Program-made: the position numbers and the translations under genes | In this document: positions 21,164 to 40,969 of the stretch, piece by piece | Position numbering within the stretch: position 1 is the first letter of the stretch | How the letters are laid out: the number at the start of each line of letters is the position of its first letter | Notes under the pieces: model-generated | Database searches by the model: none | Told to the model about the DNA's origin: nothing | What the model saw: the letters and a program-made list of their open reading frames with translations, nothing else | DNA from: an uncultured Clostridia bacterium | GTDB taxonomy: Bacteria > Bacillota > Clostridia > Christensenellales > Aristaeellaceae | Reading direction: 5' to 3' | DNA length: 41,538 nt | Assembly: GCA_944362695.1 (NCBI GenBank) | Contig: CALVTQ010000024.1 | Span: 1 to 41,538 of the forward strand

Positions 21164-21196
21164 CGCTTTCCCTCCCTCTGTGCGTGCCGTCTTTTC

Positions 21197-21225
21197 ATCA
21201 TACACCGCGAGACCCCGCATGTAAA
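21197..21225 (-). promoter_or_regulatory. Promoter of the GrpB-pyrophosphatase gene
   Basis: On the minus strand TTTACA (21225-21220), a 17-base spacer and TATGAT (21202-21197), 34 bases upstream of the start codon. Confidence 0.8.
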
Positions 21226-21234
21226 GCGCTTCGC

Positions 21235-21275
21235 AAAAAACAACCGGCGATGCAGCTCTTTCCCGCACCGCCGGT
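21235..21275 (-). terminator. Terminator at the end of the carbohydrate locus
   Basis: On the minus strand ACCGGCG (21275-21269) pairs with CGCCGGT (21249-21243) and is followed by TGTTTTTT. It begins 17 bases after the stop of the cytosolic GH43 gene and closes the locus. Confidence 0.82.
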
Positions 21276-21291
21276 CGTATTATGCAATCCG

Positions 21292-23484
21292 TCACGCCTC
21301 CGTGACCCAGACCGATTCGAAGCCGAAGCCGTCCGTGTTCGCGCTGATGCCCACGCGCCCGGCGGTCAGCGGCATCGGATCGACGTATTCAAGCAGCGTT
21401 TCCTCCCCGCTCTCCACGGTGATCCGGCTGCCCTTCGCGCGCAGCGTCAGCTCGAGCTTCCCGCCCCACGTCAGCGCGAGCGGCGCTTCGGCCAGAATGG
21501 TGTCGCCGTATGCCTGCTTGCTCAGCACAATGCGCCCGTCCGTGACGGTCACGGCGTACGCGGTACGGCTCGCCCAGACCTGATGCGGATGCCACGTCTC
21601 GCGGCTGGAGCGGATATAGCCGCTGATGCGCGCCTCGGGCGAGCAGGGCATCGTGTCGATGACCATGTGCAGCGCGCAGTCGCGCCACTGTGCGCCGAAC
21701 CAGTCCTCGCCGCCGAACCAGCCCTCGCCGAAGCCCTCCGCCGCCGTGTAGCCGCAGAACTTGCGGTTCATGCTGCTGCGCTGCTTATGGCCGATGACGT
21801 GCAGCTTCCCGCCCGAGACGTCCTCGCCGCCCTCGATGATGGCCGCAGGCGCAAGCGCGTCGGCCTCCGTGATGAAAATCCGGTCGATCACGGCGGTCTG
21901 CTCCGTCTCAATCGTGAGCGTCTGCTCGCCCGCGGGCAGCGTGATGACGCCGAAATAGCGCTTCTCCATGCCGTCGTCCGTGGCCGCGCCGGTCGTCTGC
22001 GCCGTCATGCGGCTTCCGTTGACGATCAGCGTCATCGGGGCGCCGGACGCCTTCACCGTCGCCACGACGTGATACGCGCGCGCTTTCCAGACGCTCAGCG
22101 CATAGGCCGCCGTCTCGCCGGGATGCAGCACGAGCGCCTCGCAGCCCGTCTCGCCCTCGACGGTTTCGCCGCGCAGACTGCCGTGCACAGCGTCGAACGC
22201 GCCCGGCACAGCCTTCGCCGCAGCCGCGTCTTCGCTGTCCTGCGCCGCATCGGAAAGGCCGATAAACGAAGGCACGACGCCCTCGCCCACGCCGGCGAGC
22301 CCGCCGCCGAGCGCCGTCTGTGCGTCCATGAACAGCATATCGTTGATGCAGAGCATCATGTGTCCGCCGCGCATGCTCACGCGCACGGTCATCAGCGCGC
22401 CCGTGTCCACATTCGCCGGGAACACGCCCGCCTCGCCGGTGGACAGGCTCCACGTCCTGTCGCGGCGCACGGTGAGCACGACGCCGGAGAAGAACACGCT
22501 GCCCTCCTGCGCGCAAAGGGTGAAATTGATCTCTGCCGTGTACGTGTCCGGCGCGGCCACCGCCAGCGCGCGTCCCTGCGGGCAATCCGTCAAGCCCTCG
22601 CCGTCCCTGCTCGTGCATATGGGCTGGCGCGGCGCGCTCTGGTTCCACCACGTCGCGTTGCAGTACATGCGGTCGCCGTTGAAGAACAGCCTGTCGATGC
22701 AAAGCGAGCGATAGCGCGGGCGGTTGTATTCGTCGATCACGTTTTTGTGATAGACGATGTAGCGCGTGTCCATATCCGGGCCGATGCACGTCGAGGAATG
22801 GCCGAGCGCGTGGTATTCGTCGCGCGTCTCCTGGAGCAGCATGCCGTCGCGCAGCCGGCGGAAGCCCCTGTCCGGCCCCTCGCGCGAGACCGTGTAGTCG
22901 ACGTGATAGCCCCGGCAGCAGACGTGATTGCCCGTGTCGGTCAGGAAGTAGCGCCCGCCGTGCTTGATGACCATCGGTCCTTCCGTCCAGTGGCCCAGCC
23001 AGCTCGCGCCGATGACCTTGCTGCGCACGTCGATCACGTCCGGCGCGGGCATTTCGTGCACGCGGATGCCCTGCGGGCTGGCGCGGTAGAACCAGCTTGT
23101 GCCGTCGTCGTCGACAAACAGGCTGCCGTCGATGCACAATCCAAGGTTGTCGCTGATGATCTCAAACGGCCCGGTCGGGCTGTCGCTGACGAGCAGATAA
23201 TGGCCGTTGCCCCTTGGCGATGTGACCATGTAGAATTTGCCCGCGTTGTATTTGACCTCCGGCGCGTAGGCGTAGGTCGTGCGCGGGTCCGTGCAGACGA
23301 AGCCCTGATACTCGAAGTGGATCATGTCCGCGCTCTTCCAGCATTTGATGCCGGGGTCGTTGCTCTGGCTGGAGCAGTACAGATAGAACCACCCGTCGTG
23401 GCGCATCAGGAAGGGGTCGCCGATCTCGCGGCCTTCCCACAGATCGGTCATGGGATAGGGGTTGCGCACGGTCTGTCCGTTCAT
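21292..23484 (-). CDS. Cytosolic glycoside hydrolase family 43 with C-terminal beta-sandwich regions
   Basis: A 730-residue hydrolase without signal peptide. The N-terminal five-bladed propeller (about 8-300) shows the GH43 catalytic triad: base Asp23 in GDPF, Asp119 in IDGSL and acid Glu168 in WTEGP; HSSTCIGPDMDT further on is typical of the family. The remaining 400 residues contain beta-sandwich-like regions, the last (about 590-728) of the kind found as laminin-G/CBM66-like modules. GH43 enzymes act on beta-xylosides, alpha-arabinosides or galactosides. It is a clear relative of the secreted GH43 at 26335-28632, with parallel segments throughout the propeller. ATG 23484 has GGAGGTGG upstream; the extension to 23532 does not. 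It is the last gene of the locus and follows GH2 after a hairpin. Confidence 0.9.
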   Translation of the reverse strand: MNGQTVRNPYPMTDLWEGREIGDPFLMRHDGWFYLYCSSQSNDPGIKCWKSADMIHFEYQGFVCTDPRTTYAYAPEVKYNAGKFYMVTSPRGNGHYLLVSDSPTGPFEIISDNLGLCIDGSLFVDDDGTSWFYRASPQGIRVHEMPAPDVIDVRSKVIGASWLGHWTEGPMVIKHGGRYFLTDTGNHVCCRGYHVDYTVSREGPDRGFRRLRDGMLLQETRDEYHALGHSSTCIGPDMDTRYIVYHKNVIDEYNRPRYRSLCIDRLFFNGDRMYCNATWWNQSAPRQPICTSRDGEGLTDCPQGRALAVAAPDTYTAEINFTLCAQEGSVFFSGVVLTVRRDRTWSLSTGEAGVFPANVDTGALMTVRVSMRGGHMMLCINDMLFMDAQTALGGGLAGVGEGVVPSFIGLSDAAQDSEDAAAAKAVPGAFDAVHGSLRGETVEGETGCEALVLHPGETAAYALSVWKARAYHVVATVKASGAPMTLIVNGSRMTAQTTGAATDDGMEKRYFGVITLPAGEQTLTIETEQTAVIDRIFITEADALAPAAIIEGGEDVSGGKLHVIGHKQRSSMNRKFCGYTAAEGFGEGWFGGEDWFGAQWRDCALHMVIDTMPCSPEARISGYIRSSRETWHPHQVWASRTAYAVTVTDGRIVLSKQAYGDTILAEAPLALTWGGKLELTLRAKGSRITVESGEETLLEYVDPMPLTAGRVGISANTDGFGFESVWVTEA

Positions 23485-23515
23485 CGTTCCACCTCCGAAT
23501 TCACATGATGTGTTC

Positions 23516-23563
23516 AAAGAAAGCGCGAACAAGCCTGCCTGAAAACATGTGTCTTGTTCGCGC
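23516..23563 (-). terminator. Long hairpin between the GH2 and GH43 genes
   Basis: A perfect 11-bp inverted repeat, GCGCGAACAAG (23523-23533) and CTTGTTCGCGC (23553-23563), with a 19-base loop, followed on the minus strand by TTTCTTT. It lies 12 bases after the GH2 stop and about 40 bases before the GH43 start. It can be a partial terminator or a processing/stability element that sets different levels of the two genes. Confidence 0.65.
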
Positions 23564-23574
23564 CGAAGGGGGCG

Positions 23575-25329
23575 TTATCGCTGGTTGTTGATGCGGCGGA
23601 TCTCGTCGATGCTGGCCTTGGGCACGCGGTTCATATCCAGCAGGCCGTTGACCTCCTGGAACACGTCCGTCAGCTGCGTGTAGCAGTAGCCCACGAAGCC
23701 CGGCATGTGCTTGAACGCCTGCGTGATGGCCTCAAAGCGCTTGAGGAAGGCTTCCTCGTCCTTCGCCGCGCCGTTGTAGCCCCAGTTGCCGTCGCCGGAG
23801 TCCTTCGCCATGGCGATGCCGCCGAATTCCGTGAGCAGCATGGGCTTGCCCACGTGGTCATAGCCCTGCGCAGAGACCATGCGGCCCGAGCCGGGGTTGC
23901 CGCCGCAGATCGTCTCCGCGCTGGCGTATTCGCCCGAGAGCTGCTCCGGCCAGGCGGTGTAGTCGTGCACGGTCAGAAGGTCGGTCGCCGCCTGCTCCCA
24001 ACCGTCGTTGCCCGACACGACGCGCGTGCCGTCGAGGCTGTGCACCATGTGATACAGCGCGTCGGCGAGCTTCTGCGCCTCCCTCTGCTGCCCGATGAAC
24101 GGCACGCCCCAGCTCTCGTTGAGCGGCACCCACGCGATGAGGCTCGGGTGATTGTAGTCGCGCGCAATCGCCTCGGAGAGGTCGCGCATCATGTTGCGCT
24201 TCTGGCTGTCGCGCAGCCAAAAGGCGCTGGGCAGCTCGCCCCACACCAGCAAGCCGAGCTTGTCCGCCCAGTACAGATAGCGCGGGTCCTCAAACTTCTG
24301 ATGCTTGCGCGCGCCGTTGTAGCCCATCGCGCGGGTCAGCTCCACATCGCGGCGCAGGGCATCATCGCTCGGCGCGGTCAGCAGGCCGTCGGGCCAGTAG
24401 CCCTGATCGAGGATCAGCTTTTGATAGAGGACGGAGTTGTTGAGCATCACCTTGCCGCTGACGATCTCGACCTTGCGCATGCCGAAATACGTCTCCACCC
24501 GGTCGCAGGCCTCCCCGCCCACGACGGTCTCGATGCTCAGGTCATAGAGCTTCGGGTCGCCGGGCCACCACATGTGGAAGCCCTCGAGGCGCTCGTTATG
24601 GCGCAGGAACAGCTCGGTCTGCACATAGCGGTCGGAGAGCACCGCGACCTCGCTTTTCGCCACGACATCGCCGTTAAACGACGCCGTCAGCCGCACGAGC
24701 GCGTTTTTCGGCAGTTCATTGAGCGTGACCTCCACCTTGACGCTTCCGCGCTCCAGGCACGGCGTCAGCCGGAAGTCGGCCGGATAATATTCGCCCACGC
24801 CTTCGAGCCAGACGCTCTGCCAGATGCCCGTCACCGGCGTATACCAGCACTCAAACGGCTCGGGCCTAAAGCTCTGCTTGCCGCGCGGCTGGTCAAAGTC
24901 GAGCCTGTCCTCGGCGCGAACGGTCAGCGTATATCGTCCGCCCGGCTCGGTGAGGTCGGTGATGTCGAATGTAAACGGCGTGTAGCCGCCCTCGTGGCCG
25001 CCAAGGTACTGCCCGTCGAGCCACACATCGGCGATGTAATCGACCGCGCCGAAGTGCAGCAGGCGCCGCGCCGTCATCTCCTGCGGCACGGCAATCTCTC
25101 GCGCATACCAAACCGTGTCGCAATGCGTCTGGCTGTCGATGCCCGAGAGCTTGCTCTGGTAGCAGAACGGCACCTCGATCCTGTGCGTCGCGGGCAGCGC
25201 GCGATACCATTTTTCCTTCCTTCCGGCATTGTCCGGGTCGAAGGCGAAATTCCATTGTCCGTTCAGGGTACACCAGTTTTTGCGCATCCGATCCGGCCTG
25301 GGATGCTCCGTGCGCAGCGGTACGTTCAT
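23575..25329 (-). CDS. Cytosolic glycoside hydrolase family 2 (beta-galactosidase/glucuronidase-like)
   Basis: A 584-residue hydrolase without signal peptide. Order: jelly-roll sugar-binding domain (about 15-175, with WYAREIAVP and YTPVTGIWQSVWLE), immunoglobulin-like domain (about 178-280) and TIM barrel (about 285-580) with acid/base Glu405 in NESWG and nucleophile Glu501 in TEFGG. GH2 members remove terminal beta-galactose, beta-glucuronate, beta-mannose or alpha-arabinopyranose; this shorter form (under 600 residues) resembles the glucuronidase-size group, but its substrate cannot be fixed. Its ATG overlaps the stop of the regulator gene as ATGA and has AGGAG 8 bases upstream, so the two are coupled. 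Confidence 0.93.
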   Translation of the reverse strand: MNVPLRTEHPRPDRMRKNWCTLNGQWNFAFDPDNAGRKEKWYRALPATHRIEVPFCYQSKLSGIDSQTHCDTVWYAREIAVPQEMTARRLLHFGAVDYIADVWLDGQYLGGHEGGYTPFTFDITDLTEPGGRYTLTVRAEDRLDFDQPRGKQSFRPEPFECWYTPVTGIWQSVWLEGVGEYYPADFRLTPCLERGSVKVEVTLNELPKNALVRLTASFNGDVVAKSEVAVLSDRYVQTELFLRHNERLEGFHMWWPGDPKLYDLSIETVVGGEACDRVETYFGMRKVEIVSGKVMLNNSVLYQKLILDQGYWPDGLLTAPSDDALRRDVELTRAMGYNGARKHQKFEDPRYLYWADKLGLLVWGELPSAFWLRDSQKRNMMRDLSEAIARDYNHPSLIAWVPLNESWGVPFIGQQREAQKLADALYHMVHSLDGTRVVSGNDGWEQAATDLLTVHDYTAWPEQLSGEYASAETICGGNPGSGRMVSAQGYDHVGKPMLLTEFGGIAMAKDSGDGNWGYNGAAKDEEAFLKRFEAITQAFKHMPGFVGYCYTQLTDVFQEVNGLLDMNRVPKASIDEIRRINNQR

Positions 25330-26334: not shown

Positions 26335-28632
26335 TCAGTCAAGCGGCCGGACGGCGCATGCGCGAACCGTCAGCTCCTTACCCGTCGAGAAGAATCCCCA
26401 CATACCGTGCGTCATGGGCTTGCCGTCGTCAAGGGTCAAAACCGGCTCCTGCTCCCCGGGGAGGTACACGTCGATGACGCTCCCGCGCACCTCCACATGC
26501 AGGGAGGCCGTCTGCGCGTCCTGCCATCCGTCCACGGCCCGGAAGCGGGTCGCGCCCGCCTGGCCGTATCGCGAGCGCTTGAGCGTGATGCCGCGCTCGG
26601 ATACGATGATGCCGTAGCCGAAGTAGCTGTCCTCCACCTGCAGGTCGTAGAGCGAAACGTCCGTCGCGCGCAGCAGGATGCCGCTTGTGCCCTCTCCGTC
26701 TCTCGGGATATCAAAGGTCACATCCAAAGCATAATCAGTATAGCCTTCCACACCAAACATTGCAAGGCCCTTTTTGCCCCGGTTGATCCTCAGCATCCCT
26801 TCCGTGGGCTTCATCGTGAACGGCCCGTATGTCACGAAGCGGCTGCGCTGCTCCCTGTCGGTGAAGTCGAATTCCATCGCCTCCACGGGCGCATGCGCGA
26901 ACGCCTGCACGCGGCCCAGCAGCACGTCCTGCGCCGCAATGCTCAGCGTGTGGTCGCCCTCCGGGAGCGTCACCGGCGCCGTCGTGAATGTGAACGTCGT
27001 CCCGCGCCCGGTGAAGTCCGGCACGACGCCCTCCCACAGCGGCGCACCGTCCAGCGTCAGGCGCACCGCCCTGCCCGCATCCTCCTTGCGCACGGTCAGG
27101 TCAAAGCAGTATGCGCCGCCCTCCGAGATGCGCACGGCGTAATCCGCGCTGCCCAGCATCGCACCGAGCTCGTCCTGCACGCCGAAGACCTCGAGCGTCA
27201 GCTCCGCCGCGTTGAGCGCGTGGCGTGCGGCGAAACCGCCGGGCAGAAGCTTGAGCGCCACATTGTCCGACGAGCCGAGCGCCTGCGCCGTGCAGCCCAT
27301 GAAGCCATAGGTCACGTGCTCCGCGATTTTCGCGCCGATCCGCTTCGCCGTATAGCCGGGCTTTTCCACGGTCAGCACGCGCATGTCGTCGATGTAAAAA
27401 TACGCGATATCCGGCGTCACCTCGGCGCGCAGCGTGTGCAGGCAGTCCGCCGGGCCGATTTCCGGCAGTTCCGCGCTGTGCACGGCCTCGCCGCCCGCCA
27501 TCAGCGTGATCGACGTCTGATCGACCCGCGCGACGACGTCCTCGCCGCCCTCCTGGCCGATGAGCAGCTGCGCCGCGCCGCCGTTGAGCGCAAAGTTCCA
27601 TTCCTGCGTGAACACGCCGGTCTCGGGCAGATCGGCGAACCAGCCGTCCGCCGTCTGCGTGAAGCCGTGCAGCTCGCCGTCCGCTTCGCCCCAGACATCC
27701 GGCATGCTTGGCACGGGCATGGGCGACTGGCTCGGCCCGGTGGTGTAGAGCACGCCGTTGTTGGTGAACAGCCTGTCCAGGTTGTACAGCCGCGCCGGGC
27801 CGGTCAGGCTGACCAGGTTGTGATAGGCGATGTACATGCTGTCAAGGTCGGGGCCGACGACATTCGAGGAATGGCCGAGGCCGTGGAAGTCATCGCCGTG
27901 CACGCTGTTGATGAGCAGCGTCGCGTCCTCCCTCTGCGTGAATCGCCCGACGGGGCTGACCTCGCGCGAGGCGTAGCTGACCTGATAGCCGGTCGAGCAT
28001 ACGTGGTTGCCGGTGAAGGTCAGGTAATACCAGTCGCCCCGGCGGAACATGCCCGGCCCCTCCGTCCAGTGATGCAGCGTCGCGCCCGTGTCGCTGGCGA
28101 GCGCCTTAGGCAGCATGGTCTCCTCGTCGAGCGGCGCGGATTTGATGAACCAGTTGTCCGGGAACAGCATGCGAAGCGTGCCGTCGTCCATCTTGAAAAA
28201 CGAGCCGTCGATCGAGTGGCCGAAGTTCTCCGTCACGGGGATGAACGGGCCGAGCGGCGAGTCGCTCTTGAGGATGTAGTGACCCGCGCCCAGCGGCGAT
28301 GTGATCATGTAGAAGCTCCCGCGCCAGTAGACGACCTCCGGCGCGTAGGCGAAGTAGACGTCCTTGCCCTGCGTGCAGTAGCCCGCGAACGTCCAGTTCA
28401 CGAGGTCGCGCGATGTGAACACGCGCACGCGGTCCTCGCATGTCGACGGGTACAGATAATACACGCCGTTAAAGCGCATGACGAACGGGTCGCCGGTGCC
28501 GTAATCGTCCGCGCCCGGCTCGATGGGCGGGCATTGCCCCTCGATCGTCATGGGGTTTGTATAGCTTTCCGCCGAAGACATAAGCGGCAGAAGCAGACAG
28601 GCAATCCATGCAAGCAAGATCCATTTGCTCAT
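26335..28632 (-). CDS. Secreted glycoside hydrolase family 43 with C-terminal beta-sandwich
   Basis: A 765-residue exported hydrolase. A signal peptide (about 1-21) is followed by the five-bladed propeller (about 35-330), with base Asp48 in TGDPF, Asp142 in IDGSF and acid Glu191 in WTEGP, plus HSSNVVGPDLDS. The C-terminal half (about 340-765) contains beta-sandwich regions, the last probably a laminin-G/CBM66-like module. It resembles the cytosolic GH43 at 21292-23484 along the whole length of the propeller, so the locus has one copy outside and one inside the cell. The usual GH43 substrates are arabinan, xylan or galactan side chains. The GGAGGA site is 7 bases upstream of ATG. Located directly after the ABC transporter genes. 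Confidence 0.92.
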   Translation of the reverse strand: MSKWILLAWIACLLLPLMSSAESYTNPMTIEGQCPPIEPGADDYGTGDPFVMRFNGVYYLYPSTCEDRVRVFTSRDLVNWTFAGYCTQGKDVYFAYAPEVVYWRGSFYMITSPLGAGHYILKSDSPLGPFIPVTENFGHSIDGSFFKMDDGTLRMLFPDNWFIKSAPLDEETMLPKALASDTGATLHHWTEGPGMFRRGDWYYLTFTGNHVCSTGYQVSYASREVSPVGRFTQREDATLLINSVHGDDFHGLGHSSNVVGPDLDSMYIAYHNLVSLTGPARLYNLDRLFTNNGVLYTTGPSQSPMPVPSMPDVWGEADGELHGFTQTADGWFADLPETGVFTQEWNFALNGGAAQLLIGQEGGEDVVARVDQTSITLMAGGEAVHSAELPEIGPADCLHTLRAEVTPDIAYFYIDDMRVLTVEKPGYTAKRIGAKIAEHVTYGFMGCTAQALGSSDNVALKLLPGGFAARHALNAAELTLEVFGVQDELGAMLGSADYAVRISEGGAYCFDLTVRKEDAGRAVRLTLDGAPLWEGVVPDFTGRGTTFTFTTAPVTLPEGDHTLSIAAQDVLLGRVQAFAHAPVEAMEFDFTDREQRSRFVTYGPFTMKPTEGMLRINRGKKGLAMFGVEGYTDYALDVTFDIPRDGEGTSGILLRATDVSLYDLQVEDSYFGYGIIVSERGITLKRSRYGQAGATRFRAVDGWQDAQTASLHVEVRGSVIDVYLPGEQEPVLTLDDGKPMTHGMWGFFSTGKELTVRACAVRPLD

Positions 28633-28710: not shown

Positions 28711-29574
28711 TCATTTGATGCCGGAGTGGGCCATCGTGTTCATCACCCTGCTCTGACAGAGGATGAACAGGATCAGGTTCGGTAAAAACATGATGAGCGA
28801 GGACGCCGCCGCCATGCCCTGTCCGGCCACGGTGTTCGTGGTGCTGGCGAGCGTATTCATGTAGAAGGTCAGCGTCCGCATGCTTTCCTTGTTGGTGTAC
28901 ATCGTCGAGGTTTCCGTGTTGTTCCAGACCGACTGGAACGCCAATATCGCAACCGTCGCCAGCGCGGGCTTGATCATCGGCAGGATGATCCTGCGATAGA
29001 CGGTGAAGTAGCTCGCGCCGTCCACAACAGCCGCCTCAATCAGCGAATCGGGCACCTGGTCGGTGAACTGCTTGACCAGGAACATGCCCACGGGCATCGC
29101 CACCAGCGGCAGGATGTGCGCAAAATACGTGTTGATCATGCCAAGGCCATCCACCAGCAGATAGCGCGGTATGATGACCGCGATGGGCACAAACATCATC
29201 GCGAGGTTGTTGATCTCCATGAGCACGCCCTTCGCCCGCAGCCGCAGCTTGCTCAGCGCGAAGGCCGCCATCGAGGAAATCACCATGCTCAGCAGCACGA
29301 CCGACACCGTGGCGATCAGGCTGTTGAAGATGTAGCGGCTGATCGAGATGCCGCCCGCGCTCGCCTGCCGGGCCAGCCGCGTGAAGTTGTCCAGCACCGG
29401 ATGCTCCACCAGAAAGCGCGGCGGGAAGGCAAACAGCTCCTCGATGGGCTTGAACGCGTGGTTGATGATGAACACGATGGGCACAGCCATGAACACCGCG
29501 AGCGGAACCAGCACCAAATACATCGGGATCTGGTTCATATGGAACCGGGACGGGTTGAAGCGATTTTTGCGCAT
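28711..29574 (-). CDS. Sugar ABC transporter permease, MalG type
   Basis: A 287-residue inner-membrane permease of a family 1 carbohydrate importer, with six predicted membrane segments. The coupling loop EAAVVDGASYFTVYRRIILP (about 185-204) is the EAA motif that docks the ATPase, and the protein has the C-terminal-subunit (MalG/LplC) pattern FNSLIATVSVVLLSMVISS. The start is ATG 29574: GAAAGGTGG lies 8 bases upstream and overlaps the alternative GTG at 29586. The gene follows the smaller solute-binding protein after a strong hairpin. It is the second MalG-type permease of the locus; its MalF partner is likely the one at 37215-38120 or 32058-33032. No ATPase gene is present nearby. Confidence 0.9.
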   Translation of the reverse strand: MRKNRFNPSRFHMNQIPMYLVLVPLAVFMAVPIVFIINHAFKPIEELFAFPPRFLVEHPVLDNFTRLARQASAGGISISRYIFNSLIATVSVVLLSMVISSMAAFALSKLRLRAKGVLMEINNLAMMFVPIAVIIPRYLLVDGLGMINTYFAHILPLVAMPVGMFLVKQFTDQVPDSLIEAAVVDGASYFTVYRRIILPMIKPALATVAILAFQSVWNNTETSTMYTNKESMRTLTFYMNTLASTTNTVAGQGMAAASSLIMFLPNLILFILCQSRVMNTMAHSGIK

Positions 29575-29611
29575 GGGAACGCCCACCTTTCAGCGTGTCA
29601 TTTGGGGAAGC

Positions 29612-31096: not shown

Positions 31097-32068
31097 TCAC
31101 TCGCCCGTGATGCCGCTTCGGTCGATGGCCTCGGTGAAGTATCGCTGCAGGCAGAAATACACGATCAGCAGCGGCGCGATGGCCAGCAGCGTGCCCGCCA
31201 TCGTGATCGCCTCGTTCTGCACCGACGTGGCGCCGCCCATCTTCGACGCCCAGCCGCTCACCTTCTCCAGATACGCCTTGTAGCTGTCCTCAAACCGCGC
31301 CAGCTCCATCACCAGCGTGGAGATCGACTTCGTGCTGCCCAGCGCGGCGTTGCCCATGAACAGCGATGTGGAATACGTCTCGTTCCAGTACCACACGAAC
31401 GAGAACAGGAAGCTCGTGATCATCGCCGGGACGCCCAGCGGCACGCCGATCGTCCTGAACACGCGCCATTCGCTCGCGCCGTCCACGCGCGCCGCCTCGT
31501 CCAGCGAGAGCGGAATCTGCTCGTACGTCGCGCGGTAGATCAAAACGAAGATCGCCGCACGCAGGCCCTGTCCGGTCGATGCCGGGAGGATCATCGTCCA
31601 GATCGTGCGCAGGATGCCGTAGTCGGAATACATCGTGTACGTCGGCACCATCAGCACCGGGAACGGCACGATGAACGTCAGCAGCACGCACACCATCAGA
31701 ATGTTGCGGCCCTTGAAGCGGAAGCGCGCGAACGCATAGCCCGCCAGCGCGCACGAGAGCGTCTGGCACAGCGCCGGCACGACCGTGACCAGCAGCGTGT
31801 CCATCAGGTGCTCGCTAAAGCCCATGACCTCGATGGCCTTGGCGTAATTGTCGATCGACAGCTCGTGCGGCAGCCAGTTGACCGACGGGTCGAGCAGGTC
31901 GGTCATCGACTTGAGCGACGTGACGCCCATGTGCAGGAAGGGATAGACGAACACGAAGCACAGCGCGATGAGCATGACGTATAAAAGCAGCTTGGGCAGA
32001 AGCCCCATCCGGCGATAGCCGCCGAGCATCACCCGCTTCATCCTGCGGGCGCTGATCTTACCTGCCAT
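31097..32068 (-). CDS. Sugar ABC transporter permease, MalG type
   Basis: A 323-residue membrane permease with six predicted segments. The EAA loop reads EAARVDGASEWRVFRTIGVP, and the segment WNETYSTSLFM is of the kind typical for MalG/LplC permeases. The start overlaps the stop of the preceding MalF-type gene by 11 bases and has GGGGAGGG 7 bases upstream. With that gene and the binding protein downstream it forms a complete F-G-binding cassette minus the ATPase. Confidence 0.92.
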   Translation of the reverse strand: MAGKISARRMKRVMLGGYRRMGLLPKLLLYVMLIALCFVFVYPFLHMGVTSLKSMTDLLDPSVNWLPHELSIDNYAKAIEVMGFSEHLMDTLLVTVVPALCQTLSCALAGYAFARFRFKGRNILMVCVLLTFIVPFPVLMVPTYTMYSDYGILRTIWTMILPASTGQGLRAAIFVLIYRATYEQIPLSLDEAARVDGASEWRVFRTIGVPLGVPAMITSFLFSFVWYWNETYSTSLFMGNAALGSTKSISTLVMELARFEDSYKAYLEKVSGWASKMGGATSVQNEAITMAGTLLAIAPLLIVYFCLQRYFTEAIDRSGITGE

Positions 32069-33032
32069 GGCGCTTCCCTCCCCTGCGTTTCATGCCGCGT
32101 GCGCGCTGGGCGTGCAATCGCTCGAGCTCGACCTGCTCGCGGCTCTTTTGGATGGCGACCTGCCGCGCCTTGCGCTCCTTCGTCAAGAGCATCAGCGCCA
32201 GCAGCGCAATCCCCAGGCAGATCGCATAGACCCAGGCCATCGCGCTTGCGATGCCGTATCCGCCGCCCTGCTCGCCCGTGCGGAACATGCGGTCGTTGAT
32301 GGTCGCCATGACCTCATTGAGGCCCGTCGTCGCCAGGAAGACGAGCGTGTATACGCCGTTGATGAGGATCATCGGCCTCAGCGCGGGCAGCGTAATCTTC
32401 CAGAAGGAGATCCACCCATTCGCGCCGTCGATCATCGATGCCTCGTAGATCGTGCCGTCGATCTTCTGCAATCCGGTCATGTAGATGAGGATCGGCACGC
32501 CGCAATACCACAGCACCAGAATCAGCTGGCTGAACAGGCCGCTGAGCGGGCGCGCCATCATCGGCGGGAGCACGGCCTCGATGATGCCATTGACGCCGTA
32601 TGTCTCAATCAGCGGCACGGTCGTCGCGCCCTCGCTGACCAGCCGCTCGAGCACCGGGCCGGAGACCACGATGATCGGCAGGAAGAACAGCGTGCGGAAG
32701 ACGCCCTTGCCGCGAATCGGCTGGTTGAGCATCATCGCGATGACCAGTGAGAAGACCAGGATGACCGCCAGGCGCAGGATTGCGTCGGCGAAGAACCCGG
32801 AGAGCTGCTCGATAAACACCGTGTCCGACTGGAAGATGTAGCGGTAGTTCTCCCACCCGGCCCAGCTGAGCTTGAGGCCGTTTGCCGTCACCTTCACGTC
32901 GTGCATGCTGTACCACACGGACTGCACCAGCGGCACCGCGAAGAAGCACACGAAGCCCACCAGCCACGGAAGCAGGAACAGGTAGCCCTTCATTTCGCGC
33001 CGGTTCACAAGCCCAATGCGAGGTTTCTTCAT
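32058..33032 (-). CDS. Sugar ABC transporter permease, MalF type
   Basis: A 324-residue membrane permease with six predicted segments: MKGYLFLLPWLVGFVCFFAVP at the N-terminus is typical of MalF/LplB-type subunits, followed by the EAA-type loop EASMIDGANGWISFWKITLP. The C-terminal 40 residues are basic and charged, forming an unusual tail (RKARQ...RGGKRHGR) that may contact the ribosome-side membrane surface or RNA; nothing more can be said. The ATG overlaps the stop of the DUF5696 gene as ATGA and has AAGGAGG 9 bases upstream. Confidence 0.9.
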   Translation of the reverse strand: MKKPRIGLVNRREMKGYLFLLPWLVGFVCFFAVPLVQSVWYSMHDVKVTANGLKLSWAGWENYRYIFQSDTVFIEQLSGFFADAILRLAVILVFSLVIAMMLNQPIRGKGVFRTLFFLPIIVVSGPVLERLVSEGATTVPLIETYGVNGIIEAVLPPMMARPLSGLFSQLILVLWYCGVPILIYMTGLQKIDGTIYEASMIDGANGWISFWKITLPALRPMILINGVYTLVFLATTGLNEVMATINDRMFRTGEQGGGYGIASAMAWVYAICLGIALLALMLLTKERKARQVAIQKSREQVELERLHAQRARGMKRRGGKRHGR

Positions 33033-35182
33033 TGCCCGCCGCCTCCTTCCACGATGTAGTCAAGCGCGGGGATGGTCACGCCGGAGGCCGCGTAATCCGT
33101 CTTGCGGTAGTTGACGTAGACAACCGTGCCGTTTGCGTATGTCGCCCTGGCCACGTCCTGCGCCAGCCGCTCGTGGGCGACCATGGCGCTCCCGCCGATG
33201 GCCTCATGCAGCGCGCGCAGCTTTTCGTCCGTCTTTGCGATCGTGGGCAGCAGCACCTCCCACTGCGCGGTGAACACGTCCGACGCGTTTGTGTGGATCA
33301 GCGCCTGCACGTCCTCGCCCGTCAGCAGCCACGAGGGATACGCGCCGTATTCCACGAGCTTGAGCAGCGCCTTCTGCGTGTTGCTCTCGAAGTTCAGCCA
33401 GTCGGAGTAGTAGGGAATCCGCCCGCTGAGCACCATCGGCAGGAACGGCACCTCCGCGGACAGGAACGAATAGCTCGTCGTGTCCATCGGCATATCGAGA
33501 TACACGTCCGTCTGCGCCAGATAGCCCGCCAGCGGGTTTTGCAGCGCCAGCGGCACGTCCGCCGATTCGAATATGCCGCGGTAGTCCGCCATCGTCTCCC
33601 CGCGCGAGTGGTTGCTGCCGCGCGAGTAATACGAGTAGAGCGTATTCGGCATTTCGCTGATGGCCAGCCCGTCGGCGACGCCGCCCCATTTTTCAATGGC
33701 CGCGTCCACGATCTCGGCGGAGCGCGCGGGCGTCAGGTAATACAGCTTGGGATACAGGTCCTTGCCGGTGGGCTGCTCGGCGACGGTCTGGCCGATCGTG
33801 CGCACGATGTCGATGCGCATGTTGTACATGCGGTCGGGGTTCGCCTGAAGCGGGTCGAGCTCCATCATGAAGCGCCCGCCCGCCTCGCGGACGCCCTGCG
33901 CCACGCGCGCGATGTCCTCGTCCCTGCCAAGTCTGCGCTCCAGCTCCACGCTCCCGCTGCCCAGCGCCCATGTCTGGCCGCCCGGCTGCCAGCCGCGATA
34001 GAGCACCAGCGGCGCGGTGATCCCCTGCTCGCGCATCGCCGCGAGAATCTGCTCCATCTGATCGACGGTCGTCATCCTCTCCACGCGGTTGCTCAGCAGA
34101 AACTGCGCGCTCTCCGCGCCCAGGAAGTCAAGCCTCGGGCGGTATGCTGTATCCGCCTGCGCGAGCTCCCCTTTTTCCTCGAGCACCGTGCGGTAGCGAT
34201 GCGCCATCCCGGCGTAGTTCGCCTCCTCGCCCGAGAGGATGTAGAAGCGCACCGTCATATCGCGCAGATACGGCTGTCTTTCGCGGATGTTGAGGCCGAG
34301 CGTGCGCGTCGTCTGCGCGATGTATTGCTCGCGCAGCGTGAAATGCGCCGCCGCCCAGTTGTATTGCGTGATGACCCCGGCGGGATAGGCCATGATCTCC
34401 GCTGCCTCCTCGCCGTCCTCGACGACCGCCAGATACCCCAGCTGATCGTCCGTGTAGGCCATGCCGTAGACCGGCATCGTGATGCGCTCGGCGGGGCGGT
34501 TGAGCATGGTCAGCACCGTCTTGTCCACGCCGATGTTCTCGCCGTAAATCCGCTTGGAGAACGGCGTGGAGCCCGAGCCCTCGCCGTTGGAAAAGTCGAT
34601 GAGCGCGCCCGCCGCCTCCGGCACGAGCATGTAGCCCGCCTTCTCGTCAAGGCGCGTCGCGCCGAAGCACGGCAGCAGATACACGCCGCACAGCTGCGCG
34701 TCGGTGAATTCCTCGACGCCGTCCTTGTTCACGCCCTTTGACACGGCGTATTCCTCGATGCCGTCCGCCGGGACGGTGATGGCTATGCTGTCGCCCTCCA
34801 GCCGGATGCGCAGGGCGATTCTCTGGCCGATGGCCGTGAAATCGACGGTGGCGTCCGCGCCGTTTTCAAGCGGCGTGAAGTCGATCTGCACCTCGCTGCC
34901 CGCGATGGCGTGCTGCTTGGTGGTGACCGCCGTCCCGTCAGAGATGTCCAGCACGAGCGTCGAGCCCAGGAACGCCGTCCACGTCTTGTTCGCGCCCGTC
35001 CCCTGCGCGTCGGCGCCGCTTGAGATCGTCTTGCCCGTCGCCTTGTCCGTGACGGTCAGCGACAGGTCCGCCGGGTCGATGGCGAGCGTCAGGCGGTCGC
35101 TTTCCACCGTGTGCACGTCCGCCAGCGCCGTCGCCGCGCACATCATCAGCATCGCAAGGAGAATCAGCAATTTACACTTCAT
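33029..35182 (-). CDS. Exported DUF5696 protein, possible glycoside hydrolase
   Basis: A 717-residue exported protein with a signal peptide (about 1-21) and no anchor. I recognise it as the DUF5696 type that often sits in sugar ABC operons of Bacillota. The N-terminal part (about 22-300) is beta-rich, starting with DRLTLAIDPADLSLTVTDKATG, like a galactose-mutarotase or glycosidase sandwich. The middle (about 360-600) looks like a TIM barrel: APLVLYRGWQPGG, GRFMMELDPLQ and DGLAISEMPNTLYSYY lie at strand-like ends and supply Asp and Glu residues in catalytic-like places. A hydrolase role is my inference. The start overlaps the stop of the upstream gene by 11 bases. Confidence 0.8.
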   Translation of the reverse strand: MKCKLLILLAMLMMCAATALADVHTVESDRLTLAIDPADLSLTVTDKATGKTISSGADAQGTGANKTWTAFLGSTLVLDISDGTAVTTKQHAIAGSEVQIDFTPLENGADATVDFTAIGQRIALRIRLEGDSIAITVPADGIEEYAVSKGVNKDGVEEFTDAQLCGVYLLPCFGATRLDEKAGYMLVPEAAGALIDFSNGEGSGSTPFSKRIYGENIGVDKTVLTMLNRPAERITMPVYGMAYTDDQLGYLAVVEDGEEAAEIMAYPAGVITQYNWAAAHFTLREQYIAQTTRTLGLNIRERQPYLRDMTVRFYILSGEEANYAGMAHRYRTVLEEKGELAQADTAYRPRLDFLGAESAQFLLSNRVERMTTVDQMEQILAAMREQGITAPLVLYRGWQPGGQTWALGSGSVELERRLGRDEDIARVAQGVREAGGRFMMELDPLQANPDRMYNMRIDIVRTIGQTVAEQPTGKDLYPKLYYLTPARSAEIVDAAIEKWGGVADGLAISEMPNTLYSYYSRGSNHSRGETMADYRGIFESADVPLALQNPLAGYLAQTDVYLDMPMDTTSYSFLSAEVPFLPMVLSGRIPYYSDWLNFESNTQKALLKLVEYGAYPSWLLTGEDVQALIHTNASDVFTAQWEVLLPTIAKTDEKLRALHEAIGGSAMVAHERLAQDVARATYANGTVVYVNYRKTDYAASGVTIPALDYIVEGGGGQ

Positions 35183-37193
35183 TGTAGAATCGCGCCTCCT
35201 TCCAGATTGCGGTGATGAACTCCCAGAGCTGCGCCACCAGCGCCGCCGCGATGACCAGCGCGATGACGATCATCAGCATCGTGAACAGCGTCAGCAGCAG
35301 CGCCGCGAACGTCTCGCGGAACGTGTAATTCTGAAGCGATTTGACCATCATGACAACCAGCATCAGGCACAGCGCCAGCGCCGCCAGATCGAGCATGGTG
35401 ATGATGAACGCCTCGTTGTAGGTCAGCACGAAGGACAGCGCGAAGGCCACCGGCTTGAGCAGGATGTACGGGCCGAGCGCGCAGGCAAAGCCGCAATACA
35501 TCTGCTTGAACGTCCCCTCGCCGTCGCGGATCGAGCAGATCAGGTTGCAGGCGATCAGGAAAAGCGCGATGCCGCCGATGAGCACGGTCAAGTCCATGCC
35601 GACCTCAAACCGCCCGTCCTGCACGGTCTTGAACAGGAAGCCGCACGCGTATTTGTTGACGATGTAGATCACAATCGCCGCCGCGTAGAGCAGCGTCGAG
35701 GACAGCACGCTCACCTTCCCCTCGCGCCGCACGCCGTAATACGCGTCCGACGGGTTGCGCAGGAAATACGGCGTGAAGCGCAGCTCGCGGATGAGCTTGA
35801 CGTTTCCGATTCTGCTTATCCCGCTCACGAAGCGCTGCACGGGTTTGCACCGCATTTTGAGCTGCCGCCAGACCTTGCCAAAGAGCCACAGAGCGAACAG
35901 GCCGCCGATGATCCACATGATCCCGTCCTGCAAAAACAGGTTGCGGACCTCCCAGAAGCTGTCGGAGTAGCCCGCCTTGTCCCCGCCCCGCCGCGACGCC
36001 GCCAGCGCCTCGTCGTATCGCTCCAATTTGTAATACGCGCGGCCTAAGCCCATGTGCGCGTAGTCGAACATCGAGTTCAATTGCAGCACCTGCTCCCACG
36101 GCTCGCGGCTCTCGGCGTATCGGCCCTCCTGATACAGCGAAAGGCCGCGATGCACGAGGTTTGCGTAGTCCGTGACCGCGAAGCGCTGCACGAGCGCCTT
36201 GTCGCGGTCGAGCACGTAGAGGTTGCCCGCGCTGTCCACGTCGATGGCGACGGTGCTCACGAACAGGCCGGTGCGCGTGCGGTCCTGATCCTGCCCGCCG
36301 AAGTGGAACAGGCATCGCCCGTCGCGCGTGTATTCCATGATGTAGCCGGTCTCGTTGACGATGAAGATATTTTCATAAGCGCCCACGGCCACGTCGACGA
36401 TGTTGTCAAAGCTCCAATTCGTCTCGCCCATGATGTTCAGGCCCGCCATGTTCAGGCGCTTGACGCCCTGCGCGCCGGTCGTGACCGTGTAGATCAGACC
36501 GCGCGCATCCATGTCAAGCGCTGTCGGCGTCGCCGGAATGACGCGCTTGAGCATCGCGAGCTGCTCGTCGGTGTAGGTCAGCCGCTTGAGCTTTTCGATC
36601 AGGTCGAGCTGCGTGTCGTTCGCGCCGAAGTAGCCCAGGAATGTGCCGTCGGCGGAGAATTGCGCGATGCCGTTTGTGTTGCCCTTGGAGATGACGTACA
36701 TGCCGCCCGCATCGTCCACCGCGATTTCCAGCGGCTCGAATTTGGCGTTGACGCCGTAGAGCGGCGTGCCGGGGTGCTCGAGCGTGAAGACCTGTCCGCC
36801 CGTCTCGATGTCGAAGACGAGCACCTGCTTGAGCTTGGCGTCGCACGCGTAGAGCCTGCCGTTTTTGGCGTATATGCCGCTCGGCTGCTTGAACGTGTCC
36901 TCGCCGTATGTGCGCACAAATTCGCCGTCCGTGCCGCAGAGGATGACGCGCTTGTTGCCCTCGTCCGATATGAACATCCGGTCTTCGTCGTCCACGAACA
37001 GATCGGACGGACGCTTGAGCGTGTCGTCGTTAAATTCGGTGTATGTGCCGTCGGGCAGGTAGCCCGCGGGCGAATGTGCGCGCTCGCCGGAGTAGATCTC
37101 CGTGAGCGTGTAGTAGGGCGCCTCGTCCGCCGCCGCGCCCAGAGGAAGGAGCATCCAGCACAGCAGGAGCATCAAAAGTCGTTTTGTCCACAT
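35172..37193 (-). CDS. Membrane protein with NHL beta-propeller, TPR and YIP1 domain
   Basis: A 673-residue protein with an unusual domain order: signal peptide (about 1-22), six-bladed NHL-type propeller outside the cell (about 30-350, blades such as RPSDLFVDDEDRMFISDEGNKRV and QPSGIYAKNGRLYACDA), a TPR-like helical pair (about 355-415), a membrane segment (about 430-448), a basic loop and a YIP1-like domain with five membrane segments (about 485-665). No catalytic motif is seen. It lies between a MalF-type permease and DUF5696 with very tight spacing, so it is probably part of the same uptake machine, perhaps a surface sensor or scaffold. I chose ATG 37193, with AGGGGG 10 bases upstream. 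Confidence 0.82.
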   Translation of the reverse strand: MWTKRLLMLLLCWMLLPLGAAADEAPYYTLTEIYSGERAHSPAGYLPDGTYTEFNDDTLKRPSDLFVDDEDRMFISDEGNKRVILCGTDGEFVRTYGEDTFKQPSGIYAKNGRLYACDAKLKQVLVFDIETGGQVFTLEHPGTPLYGVNAKFEPLEIAVDDAGGMYVISKGNTNGIAQFSADGTFLGYFGANDTQLDLIEKLKRLTYTDEQLAMLKRVIPATPTALDMDARGLIYTVTTGAQGVKRLNMAGLNIMGETNWSFDNIVDVAVGAYENIFIVNETGYIMEYTRDGRCLFHFGGQDQDRTRTGLFVSTVAIDVDSAGNLYVLDRDKALVQRFAVTDYANLVHRGLSLYQEGRYAESREPWEQVLQLNSMFDYAHMGLGRAYYKLERYDEALAASRRGGDKAGYSDSFWEVRNLFLQDGIMWIIGGLFALWLFGKVWRQLKMRCKPVQRFVSGISRIGNVKLIRELRFTPYFLRNPSDAYYGVRREGKVSVLSSTLLYAAAIVIYIVNKYACGFLFKTVQDGRFEVGMDLTVLIGGIALFLIACNLICSIRDGEGTFKQMYCGFACALGPYILLKPVAFALSFVLTYNEAFIITMLDLAALALCLMLVVMMVKSLQNYTFRETFAALLLTLFTMLMIVIALVIAAALVAQLWEFITAIWKEARFYNEV

Positions 37194-37214
37194 CGCTTAT
37201 GCGCCCCCTTCCCC

Positions 37215-38120
37215 TCAATCTTCCCTGAACATCCTGCCGCTCCAGCGGGTGATGACGTAGATCATGATCAGCAGCACCACCGAGGCCGCCGACGCGTAGC
37301 CCATCTCGTAGCGGATGAAGCCGTAGTCCTCGATCAGGTTGACGATCAGCTGGCCCGCGTATTGCGGCGTCGGGTTCGCGCCCGACAGACTGACGCCGAT
37401 GTGGCCGACCTGGAATGTGTTGACCACCGCCATGACAAGGCCAAAGAGCATCTGCGGCTTCATCATCGGGATGGTGATATAGAATACCTCCTGGAAGCGG
37501 TTGCGCAGGCCGTCGATCTCCGCCGCCTCGTAGACGGTTTCGTCGATGTTCATCATGCCCGCGAGCATCGCCAGGAAGCCCACGCCCATCGACGACCACA
37601 GCGCCACGAGGATCATGACCGGCATGAGATACGTCGTGCTCTGCAAAAACTGGATCGGCTCGTTGATCCACCCCAGATGCAGCAGCAGCGCATTGAGATA
37701 GCCGCGCTCGTCGCCCGAGAAGATGATGCGCCAGACGACGTTCATCGCCACGCCCGACGTCATCGACGGGCTGTAGAGCAGCAGCGCCAGCACCGTGCGC
37801 GGCCCTCTTGAAATCTGGCTTAAGCACCACGCGAGGAAGAAGCTCAGCAGATAGCCGCCCGGCCCGACGATCAGCGCAAAGAGGATCGTGTTGGGCAGCA
37901 CGTACTGCATGAAGATGGCGTCGCGCGTGAGCAGGTTGATGTAATTCATGAACCCGACGAAGTCCGGGAACTGAATCGTGTTGAAGTTGGTGAAGCTCAG
38001 CGCGATGGCGATCACGACGGGGATGATGATGAACAACGTGAACAGCACGATATATGGGAGCAGGAACAGCCACGCGATCTTCTGATCCTTCGGCCCGCGC
38101 ATTTTGACAGCCTTTGTCAT
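37215..38120 (-). CDS. Sugar ABC transporter permease, MalF type
   Basis: A 301-residue permease with six predicted membrane segments. The N-terminus [19 protein letters not shown] and the coupling loop [20 protein letters not shown] are diagnostic for MalF/LplB-type subunits. ATG 38120 is preferred over 38129: it overlaps the stop of the large binding protein as ATGA and lies 8 bases after AAAGGAG. It is directly coupled to the 950-residue solute-binding protein, so that protein is probably its partner. Confidence 0.93.
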
Positions 38121-40969
38121 TGCAGCCACTCCTTTACTGTTTCCATGTCCGGCACGATGAAGGGCTGCGTCATTTCGCCCTCCTGCACGCGGCCGAATTC
38201 CTCCAGCTTGCGCTCGAGCTCGCGGTCGATGCGCTTGATGGCCTCGTCAAGCGCCGAGCGCAGCGTCTCGCCCTCGAGCACCACCGCGTTCACCGCATTG
38301 GACAATTCGCGCTCGGCCATGTACGAGCCGGGGTTCCTCGGCGTCTCGTAGATCCAGTTCATCTGCTCGGCGATGACCTTCTTGTGGCGCGTGGGCCACG
38401 GCGAGTTCATGAACGCGTCCACATTCGCGCTGTTCCAGAGGTATTCGTTGCCCAGCGTCGATTGCAGCGTGTAGGCGAACTCCGTCTGCGTGTCCTCGCT
38501 CATCCACCAGCGCAGGAACGCCCACGACTCGTCCGGCAGATTCGTGTTGTCAAAGATGAAGCAGCTCTGCTCCGCGCCGCTCGTCCAGCGCTGCACGACG
38601 CCGTTTTCGTCGGTCAGGCCGGGATATGGCGCAATCTCCCATTTGTCGGTCAGCTCCGGCGCGGCGTTCATCAGCAGGTTGTACATGCCGTAATTCGCCG
38701 TGCCGATGGGCAGCGTGCCGTCGCGGAAGCTCTGATAGAAGCTGTTGATCTCGAAATCCATGTCGTAAATGATGAAGGAATCCGTGAGTACCTTGAGCCC
38801 CTCGATGGCCTCCTCCGTGTCCAGCTGCACATGCAGGTCGCCGCTCTCGTAGAGCACCGCGCCGTTTTGATACAGGTAGGGCGTTGTGATCGAGAAGGCC
38901 TTGTAGCCGATGGCGTTGGCCACGTAGTTGTTGAAGTTCAGCCCGAAGCGGTGCAGCGTGGGCAGCATCTGCAGGACTTCCTCGTAGGAATCCGGCGCTT
39001 CAAGCCCGATCGACTCGAGGATGTCCGTGCGGTAGAACAGCACGTAGAAATTGAACGTCTCCGGCAGCGCATAGAGTCCGTCGTCGCATACGCCCGGCAT
39101 CAGCAGGCCCGCCGGGAACCAGCCACCCACCTCTCCAAAGCCCGGATAGCCGCGCAGATTTTTGAGCGCGCCGCGCACGGCCAGGTCGTATACGCGCGTG
39201 GTTGACACACCGAGCGCCACGTCCGGCGCTGTGCCGCTCGCGTTGGCGAGGATGAGCTTGCTCTCGTCGGGCATGATGGAGAACTCGACCTCGATGCCCG
39301 TGGCCGGCGTGAAATTCGTGTCGGCCATGCGCTGCAGAATCTCCAGATACTGGCGCGGGCGGTTGACCCACACCTGCAATTTGCTCTCGTCCCCCGCGTC
39401 GGCGACGTAGCTCTCGTCCGTGAACGAGGCGATGAACCGTCCGACACCGTCGCCCGCGCGCGCAAGCAGACCCGGTGTGCCGGGCAGCAGCGCTTCGTCG
39501 GTGTAGAGGTAGATCGCGTCAAGTCCCATCGGGCTGGTGGAGAGCGTCTCCACGGCGGAGACGAGGAAGCCGCGCGCCGAAGCCGAGCCCTGCGAAAAGA
39601 GCGTCATCTTCTTGGGCAGATCGTTGGGCTCCTCGGAAAGCGTTTCGAGCGCCGCAATCGCCATCTCGAGGGTCGAGAGCGCACCGATTCTCTCCTGTTC
39701 ATCCGTGAGCGCGGCGAGGCAGGCGTGAATCGCGGTCAGCTCCTCCTGCCAGCGCGCAAGGTCCTCGGCGATGTGAAAATCGAAATCCTCGAGCGCGAAA
39801 TCGCGGAAGAAATCGGTGTTGCCGCCCGTGATTTTGGTGATCTCCAGCGCGAGTGCGGCGATCTCGTCGGACACGTTCTGCATCCGCGCCAGCGAATCGC
39901 GCAGCGGGTCGACGCTCGTGATCAGCGTCAGCGTGTGCTCGCCCTCGGTCAGCTCGATCAGCGCGGGCGCGCCGTTTTCATCGGTCACGGTCTGGTTGCC
40001 GAAGCTCAGGCTGTAATCAAACGCCGCGTCGGCGAAGGCCGGGCCGGGAATCACGCCGTCGATGAGCACCGTGCGGTAGACCGGGAAGTTCGCCAGCTCG
40101 CTTTGGCGAAGCCGCAGGGCCAGCGCGTAGCAGCCCGCCTCCCCGACGGTGAATGTGTAGGTCAGCCGGTCGCCGGGATATTTGTAGGAGACGTCCTCGA
40201 TGTGGTTGATGACCTTTTTGTCGCTCCGGTAGGGCGACAGGCGCATGTCGTAATCGGCGAGCGGGCGGATGTTGGGGTTGTTGCGCATGGGCACGCGCTC
40301 GGCCTGTATCTCGATGATCCGGCTGCCCTGCAATTCGCCCTGCGCCGCCTCGCGCACGGGAATCTCGCCCTCGAGCGTCAGGCCATAGAGCACGAACGGA
40401 CCTTCGTGACATTCGATGGTCACCGTATGCGCACCCGCGGTCAGGCGAAGCCCCATGCCGCGCGCGTACATGCCCGCCTTGCCCATCAGGCGGCAGGACG
40501 TCACGCCGTAGAACTTTTCGGGCATGGAGACGACCTCGTTGCCGTAGCGGTCGAGCTCGAACGTCCCGTCCTGCGTCCAAACGCTGTCCAGCTTGAGCGT
40601 GCTGCACTCGGCGTAGGGCATCGCCCCGTCCACCAGCAGCGTGCAGCTGTTATCCAGGATGTTGCTGCCGGTCATCGCGTAGGTCAGCACGGGATAGCCG
40701 AAGACGTCGCCGCTCACCTCGATGTCCAGCGTCACGCTCTCGCCCTCCGCCAGCGCCACGCCCTCGTCCGATGAAAAGAGCACGACAGGCGCCTCAACCG
40801 GGGCCATCCCGCCGAGTGCCGCCGCGTACTGCGCGTATGCGGCCGCATCGCCGCCCGCCTGCATCGCCTCGCCCGGCGTGGCTTCCGTCTGCATTGATTC
40901 TCCCAGCGCAGCGAACGGCCATAGGAGCAGCAGGATAAACGCTACGATCATTTTCTTAGGCGAGAACAT
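38117..40969 (-). CDS. Extended sugar ABC solute-binding protein with N-terminal beta-rich domains
   Basis: A 950-residue exported protein, roughly twice the size of a normal family 1 binding protein. A signal peptide (about 1-24) is followed by two beta-rich modules that look like carbohydrate-binding jelly rolls (about 55-205 and 213-355; the second has [20 protein letters not shown] and [17 protein letters not shown], as in CBM6/35-type folds), a helical connector (about 360-455) and a binding-protein core (about 470-930) with [28 protein letters not shown] and [18 protein letters not shown]. There is no lipobox. It is the first gene after the promoter at 41024-41052, with AGGAGG 10 bases upstream of ATG. 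Multivalent polysaccharide capture is an inference from the fused modules. Confidence 0.87.

Follow-up and report, generated by a model that had tools for sequence, protein, structure and literature searches.

A recurrent block of two permease pairs, an extended binding protein, a YIP1 protein and DUF5696 as a candidate oligosaccharide uptake machine in Bacillota

The stretch of DNA analysed here (the window, 41,538 nucleotides of contig CALVTQ010000024.1 from an uncultured Clostridia bacterium) carries a block of genes that we label E, F1, Y, D, F2, G2, S and G1 in window order, all on the minus strand (Table 1). The original prediction singled out the first four, an extended solute-binding protein (E), a permease (F1), a propeller and YIP1 membrane protein (Y) and a DUF5696 protein (D), and Pfam domains confirm each of these where it was placed. 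The four-gene extent did not hold: Y and D are no more constant as neighbours than a second permease pair, and the four genes are half of the unit. With an F1 start at 38120 the overlap of E and F1 is 4 bases, F1 and Y are separated by 21 bases, and Y and D overlap by 11 bases. The 4-base overlap of D with F2 and the 11-base overlap of F2 with G2 (if the upstream start is taken) indicate that the unit runs on past D, with gaps of 73 bases before S and 84 bases before G1. A simple promoter and terminator scan returned 6 and 13 sites, compared to 3.9 and 10.0 in shuffled sequences; as this is no signal above the shuffled level, we infer a single transcript from gene spacing only. F2 scores 21.9 bits against Pfam BPD_transp_1, under the cut-off of 26.4, and no ATP-binding cassette (ABC) ATPase was found among the 29 window proteins scanned.

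Table 1. Genes of the block and glycoside hydrolase (GH) genes downstream of it in the window. Values are E-values unless stated; CBM, carbohydrate-binding module.
Feature	Position	Strand	Evidence
E, extended solute-binding protein, 950 residues	38117..40969	-	Pfam SBP_bac_8 (residues 551-833), 8.9e-18
F1, MalF/UgpA-type permease	37215..38129 (alternative start 38120)	-	Pfam BPD_transp_1, 2.7e-8; EAA loop
Y, NHL propeller, TPR, transmembrane helix and YIP1 membrane domain, 673 residues	35172..37193	-	Pfam Yip1, 3e-9, NHL, TPR; hydrophobic segments
D, DUF5696, exported or N-terminally anchored, 717 residues, predicted GH129-like fold	33029..35182	-	Pfam, 2.2e-148
F2, second MalF-type permease	32058..33032	-	NCBIfam UgpA, 1.2e-13 (under curated cut-off); EAA loop
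G2, MalG-type permease, F2 partner	31097..32068	-	Pfam, 1.3e-18; G2 clade in tree
S, second solute-binding protein, ordinary size, 450 residues	29671..31023	-	Pfam SBP_bac_1, 2.7e-19
G1, MalG-type permease, F1 partner, displaced to block end	28711..29586	-	among G1 rows of tree, starred sets at 99
GH43 with CBM6-like stretch (under Pfam cut-off), next gene downstream of G1	26335..28632	-	Pfam Glyco_hydro_43, 3.1e-32
GH2, further enzyme of window locus	23575-25329	-	Pfam
Second GH43, further enzyme of window locus	21292-23532	-	Pfam

The families were searched for in 398 Bacillota genomes from 268 genera, the window's own genome included. PF18952 (DUF5696) matched in 49 genomes at an E-value of 0.001, in 40 of them over the cut-off and in 38 strongly (>400 bits); two genomes over the cut-off at ∼26 bits (G292 and G314) and nine under it were not counted as D. 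The strong matches fall into 21 genus groups (of the 268 genera sampled) and 17 family groups, and both Y and E are present in all 38 of the 398 genomes that hold them. Conversely, the Y profile, at a threshold of 1e-20, found 39 genomes, the 38 with strong D and only one of the 360 others (G237). E, counted only where its N-terminal half was matched, so that genomes matching the ordinary binding-protein half alone were left out, was found in the same 38 (cut by the contig start in G100) and in two of the 360 others, G101 and G149, whose contigs (3.8 and 4.3 kb) break off inside the permease after E. All occurrences of E or Y outside the strong-D genomes lie on contigs shorter than 9 kb, and a 3.1-kb contig of G077 carries, with two permeases, the C-terminal part of an E-like protein that reaches the edge of the contig and is possibly a truncated E. 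Under a hypergeometric test, the co-occurrence of D and Y has P values of 2e-52 across genomes and 3e-30 across genera, relatedness being ignored in both. At most three D and two Y or E candidates were scored per genome, and copy numbers are therefore lower bounds.

Gene order was read among profile-matched frames, with gene calls in relatives made by our own script, at 65 loci (the window, five named loci and the 59 strong D matches listed besides). Y lies directly upstream of D (within 700 bases) at 64 of these, the exception starting at a contig end, and an F then a G permease follow D at all 61 loci having at least 2.5 kb downstream. E-F-(G)-Y-D forms one uninterrupted run at 37/65 loci, E-F-G stands after the D half at 6/65, and S directly follows G2 at 31/65. 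In six genomes where E was missing near one D locus or more, seven further E loci were read, and five of these likewise carry E-F-G-Y-D. Y is split into two adjacent genes in many relatives. The same arrangement can be read from the independent annotation of two plasmids, that of Butyrivibrio fibrisolvens D1 (GH43, binding protein, two permeases, NHL, YIP1, DUF5696, two permeases, two binding proteins) and that of Paenibacillus cellulosilyticus (ATPase, binding protein, two permeases, YIP1, DUF5696, two permeases). Two variant layouts were also seen. Loci L043 and L048 have six and five binding-protein matches in a row after G2, as if many receptors shared one permease pair, and half cassettes of E-F1-G1, with no Y-D in the stretch fetched, occur at L111 (6880-11882) and L116 (2586-7597), both in genomes that also hold D.

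A quick tree of 104 MalG-type proteins, with Shimodaira-Hasegawa-like approximate likelihood ratio test (SH-aLRT) support only, places the proteins that follow E (G1) and those that follow D (G2) on opposite sides, the exceptions being some rows without assignment and three frames that close the window-type operon. One of these three frames is the last permease of the window, which falls among G1, while that following F2 falls with G2; the window holds one of each, so no part of its cassette is missing, although G1 has shifted to the end. An EAA loop is present in all four window permeases, and a loose pattern finds it in 45/45 F1, 40/40 G1, 39/61 F2 and 56/60 G2 relatives; 21 of the other 22 F2 have a variant loop and one (L070) has none. 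In 26 non-redundant cassettes, drawn from 34 with all parts, the seven parts E, F1, G1, Y, D, F2 and G2 co-diverge, with Mantel correlations of 0.80–0.95 for all 21 part pairs and none of 2000 permutations as high, though species descent accounts for part of this correlation. However, the window's own genome has three cassettes that lie apart in the tree, and two of them have a single nearest relative for nearly all parts: that of the window cassette is L006 for 7/7 parts, and that of L064 is L052 for six of seven and L054 for one. The parts of the third, L095, stay inside one small group of relatives. Co-occurrence, order and co-divergence together bear out the original prediction that these families form one unit, and the genome search it proposed as a means of refutation leaves the block standing. 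As far as gene sequences can tell, the set and its order show the window operon to be one unit of co-inherited families. A chance assembly in this genome, to which we allow practically no probability, is ruled out by the same data, the set being present, mostly with its order kept, across 38 genomes from 17 family groups.

The enzymes beside the cassette differ between loci. Downstream of G1 the window has GH43, a small helix-turn-helix protein, GH2 and a second GH43, the first GH43 being the probable substrate-specific enzyme of this locus. Neighbours at other loci include GH10, GH26-CBM35, GH28, GH42, GH43 and GH95. A scan of 60 of 84 listed representatives adds, among the first 25 of 103 families, GH2 and GH30 as well as pectic acid lyase, alpha-L-fucosidase, alginate lyase, chondroitinase B and others. 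This diversity of polysaccharide enzymes rules out a system for a single substrate, and since the enzymes change between loci the core looks substrate-independent. The P. cellulosilyticus plasmid cassette (L121) has an adjoining UgpC ATPase gene upstream; on its downstream side lie four LLM-class flavin oxidoreductases and two binding proteins. In the window's own genome (G000), three OB_MalK matches over the cut-off lie elsewhere, outside the window contig.

E begins with a hydrophobic segment (a signal peptide or anchor), followed by a β-sandwich region, a helical linker and a C-terminal sugar-binding-protein fold. Its model has a predicted local distance difference test score (pLDDT) of 85.3, and the listed Foldseek matches, among them 5ysb and 9xf5, span the C-terminal binding-protein half only, where the fold is predicted to be near Lin1841 and other oligosaccharide binders. 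In the N-terminal half, residues 294-393 of the E family profile match a cycloisomaltooligosaccharide glucanotransferase chain (5x7g, 1.4e-8), and CBM_35 and CBM_6 are found in 2/27 and 1/27 E relatives, respectively. Y consists of propeller and TPR, one helix and then YIP1 (Pfam Yip1 37.4 bits, cut-off 28.6), and its profile matches NHL and TPR structures. The closest precedent we found by analogy is YknW of the Bacillus YknWXYZ system, likewise a Yip1-family membrane protein in an ABC transporter setting, which is reported to modulate assembly of an ABC exporter (PMC4887032); the remark in the original prediction that it knew of no described role for the propeller/YIP1 partner in ABC sugar import needs this qualifier. 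Y differs from YknW in its importer context, and in having propeller and TPR in the same chain or an adjoining gene. The literature searched yielded no report of NHL with either carbohydrate ABC transporters or Yip1, and for YIP1 with sugar ABC transporters the one paper listed was a phylogenomic, taxonomic study of Pseudomonas.

Window D is a clear member of its family (495.9 bits to PF18952, cut-off 25.6), and its predicted fold is like that of GH129-type glycosidases. The AlphaFold model (pLDDT 89.1) has as its top Foldseek match the GH129-like DagB (5opq, E-value 1.6e-33, template-modelling score TMq 0.65, 13% identity), next the GH129 enzyme NagBb (5wzn, TMq 0.66) and then, more distantly, GH101; the similarity covers most of D, and profile searches agree with a GH129-type fold (7.8e-12 and 3.4e-9). 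D nonetheless differs from GH129 in sequence. Pfam GH129 does not match window D, on which DUF5696 was the sole match at E-values up to 0.01, while a GH129 search of 249 genomes gave no match, controls likewise, and is hence uninformative. Of nine weak D matches in other genomes, fetched as possible GH129 proteins, three were checked against the PDB, one being a GH13 amylase and two having no convincing match. The D alignment comprises 47 of 49 non-redundant sequences (L060 and L094, both truncated, were excluded), and no acidic position is conserved in all of them; the corresponding Y set has 28 of 29 sequences (an oddly long frame, L064, left out). Trp398 of D is invariant and aligns with Trp324 of NagBb, but the positions aligned to NagBb Asp322 and to Asp330, which we take to be catalytic, are acidic in just 1/47 and 10/47 D, respectively, while the Asp435 position could not be aligned in D, even with a barrel-only profile. 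Near-conserved acids are found at positions 189 (45/47), 216 (42/47), 518 (40/47) and 611 (45/47). Window D and its near kin L006 lack acids at 216, 518 and 575, which are kept in 42, 40 and 36 of the 47 relatives. DagB is active even though, as its authors report, Asp435 is the sole one of two NagBb catalytic residues conserved in it (PMC5698469), and losing one position is therefore no proof of inactivity.

Recurrence of the block among distantly related Gram-positive bacteria, next to enzymes acting on a variety of polysaccharides, suggests a general uptake machine. We give an even chance to the reading in which the seven co-inherited families, often with S, form a machine for oligosaccharide capture and import, and infer the roles of Y and D, any physical complex, and transport by F1/G1 and F2/G2. 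Adjoining glycan enzymes, of whatever kind, would release oligosaccharides for the machine to import. The CBM-like sandwiches of E may grip the glycan while its binding-protein domain delivers pieces to F1/G1. D would present its GH129-like barrel on the outer face, where it could hold, orient or trim chains bound for F2/G2, beside which S would act as a binding protein of the usual kind. Y may be the membrane scaffold joining D and the permeases, with YIP1 in the membrane and propeller and TPR outside, and both pores would draw their power from common MalK/MsmX-type ATPases, with genes at other places in the genome. The surface machine feeding an importer that the original prediction envisaged fits this anatomy, but polysaccharide processing by DUF5696 is unproven, because the two alignable NagBb acids are not conserved. 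A more specific, rather unlikely version has D as a non-enzyme receptor on a glycosidase fold that passes polysaccharide chains to F2/G2, with Y docking D, so that one two-pore complex acts on the same bound glycan; if true, this would be a Gram-positive counterpart of SusCD in logic, constant across loci with differing enzymes.

Several observations count against a single seven-family machine for glycans. E is not adjacent to Y-D at 22/65 loci (further off at L073 and L086, several others being cut by contig ends), and two of the seven further E loci have E-F-G alone in the stretch fetched; the halves are therefore separable in position. The Y fragment of G237, at the edge of an 8.5-kb contig, has no D in 7.7 kb downstream. 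Around the P. cellulosilyticus plasmid cassette, the stretch shown is annotated with flavin-dependent oxidoreductases and no glycan enzyme, suggesting a non-polysaccharide cargo and warning that a plain glycan may not be imported in every case. Neighbours from general metabolism (aminotransferase, prismane, ThiI and decarboxylase) are also listed, and speak neither way on the question of a single substrate.

Among the alternatives, it is possible, if doubtful, that the unit is no more than a pair of normal importers, E-F1-G1 and S-F2-G2, sharing a transcript, in which case D would be a working exo-glycosidase from a GH129-like family and Y a surface protein in loose association. S follows G2 at 31/65 loci, the four near-conserved acids of D could make another active site, and DagB and NagBb, which share the D fold, are enzymes (PMC5698469). 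Simple co-transcription, however, leaves Y beside D at nearly every locus across 21 genera unexplained, and an active D of this kind sits poorly with the rarity of acids at the Asp322 and Asp330 positions and with the very different polysaccharide enzymes that adjoin it. We consider it very unlikely that Y-D-F2-G2 is a sensor, in which the second permease pair together with Y would signal flux or the presence of glycan to regulators, with transport left to E-F1-G1: two permease pairs per unit do look redundant for transport alone, and sensor kinases lie near the window and Butyrivibrio cassettes, but no kinase is seen tied to the set as a whole, F2 and G2 mostly retain EAA-type coupling loops, and S often adjoins them.

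The cassette shares features with several known systems. As in the CUT1, or MalEFGK-type, oligosaccharide ABC importers, there are MalF- and MalG-type permeases with EAA-type loops, sugar-binding proteins (E and S, Pfam SBP_bac_8 and SBP_bac_1) and no ATPase found in the window block, MalK-type candidates being elsewhere in the genome; unlike these importers, the cassette joins two permease pairs in one unit, Y and D are its constant partners, and one binding protein is of double size, with sandwich modules added. Gram-positive polysaccharide utilisation loci cluster an importer, a regulator and glycoside hydrolases, whereas the cassette is constant across loci while enzymes vary, and we know of no description of such loci that includes Y or D. 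A constant uptake core with variable enzymes alongside also recalls SusCD of Bacteroidota, from which the cassette differs in that its proteins are unrelated and its chemistry is that of a cytoplasmic-membrane ABC system, not TonB. Searches of the literature, with most subscription journals beyond reach, found no mention of DUF5696 or PF18952, and no description of the cassette was found in the literature searched, partly judged by title and the start of the abstract, so that an earlier description elsewhere is possible. If the proposal is right, many Bacillota families share a constant uptake core, so far unnamed because its parts are annotated singly as permease, YIP1, NHL or DUF. DUF5696 would gain a fold and a partner set, why a sugar import unit should have two permease pairs would become a testable question, and the cassette would serve as a marker for glycan-uptake loci.

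Elsewhere in the window, all on the minus strand, a GHKL sensor kinase and LytTR response regulator pair (14243-16287) lies amid glycosidase genes, and is a possible regulator of the locus. Long coding frames of 607 and 415 residues without a Pfam match lie at 8919-10742 and 16396-17643, respectively. A 398-residue sortase-domain protein (3636-4832) has a weak mucin-like match across its N-terminal part, and one frame (20288-21295) joins a GrpB domain (residues 53-220) to a partial inorganic pyrophosphatase match (residues 246-300), a pairing that looks unusual.

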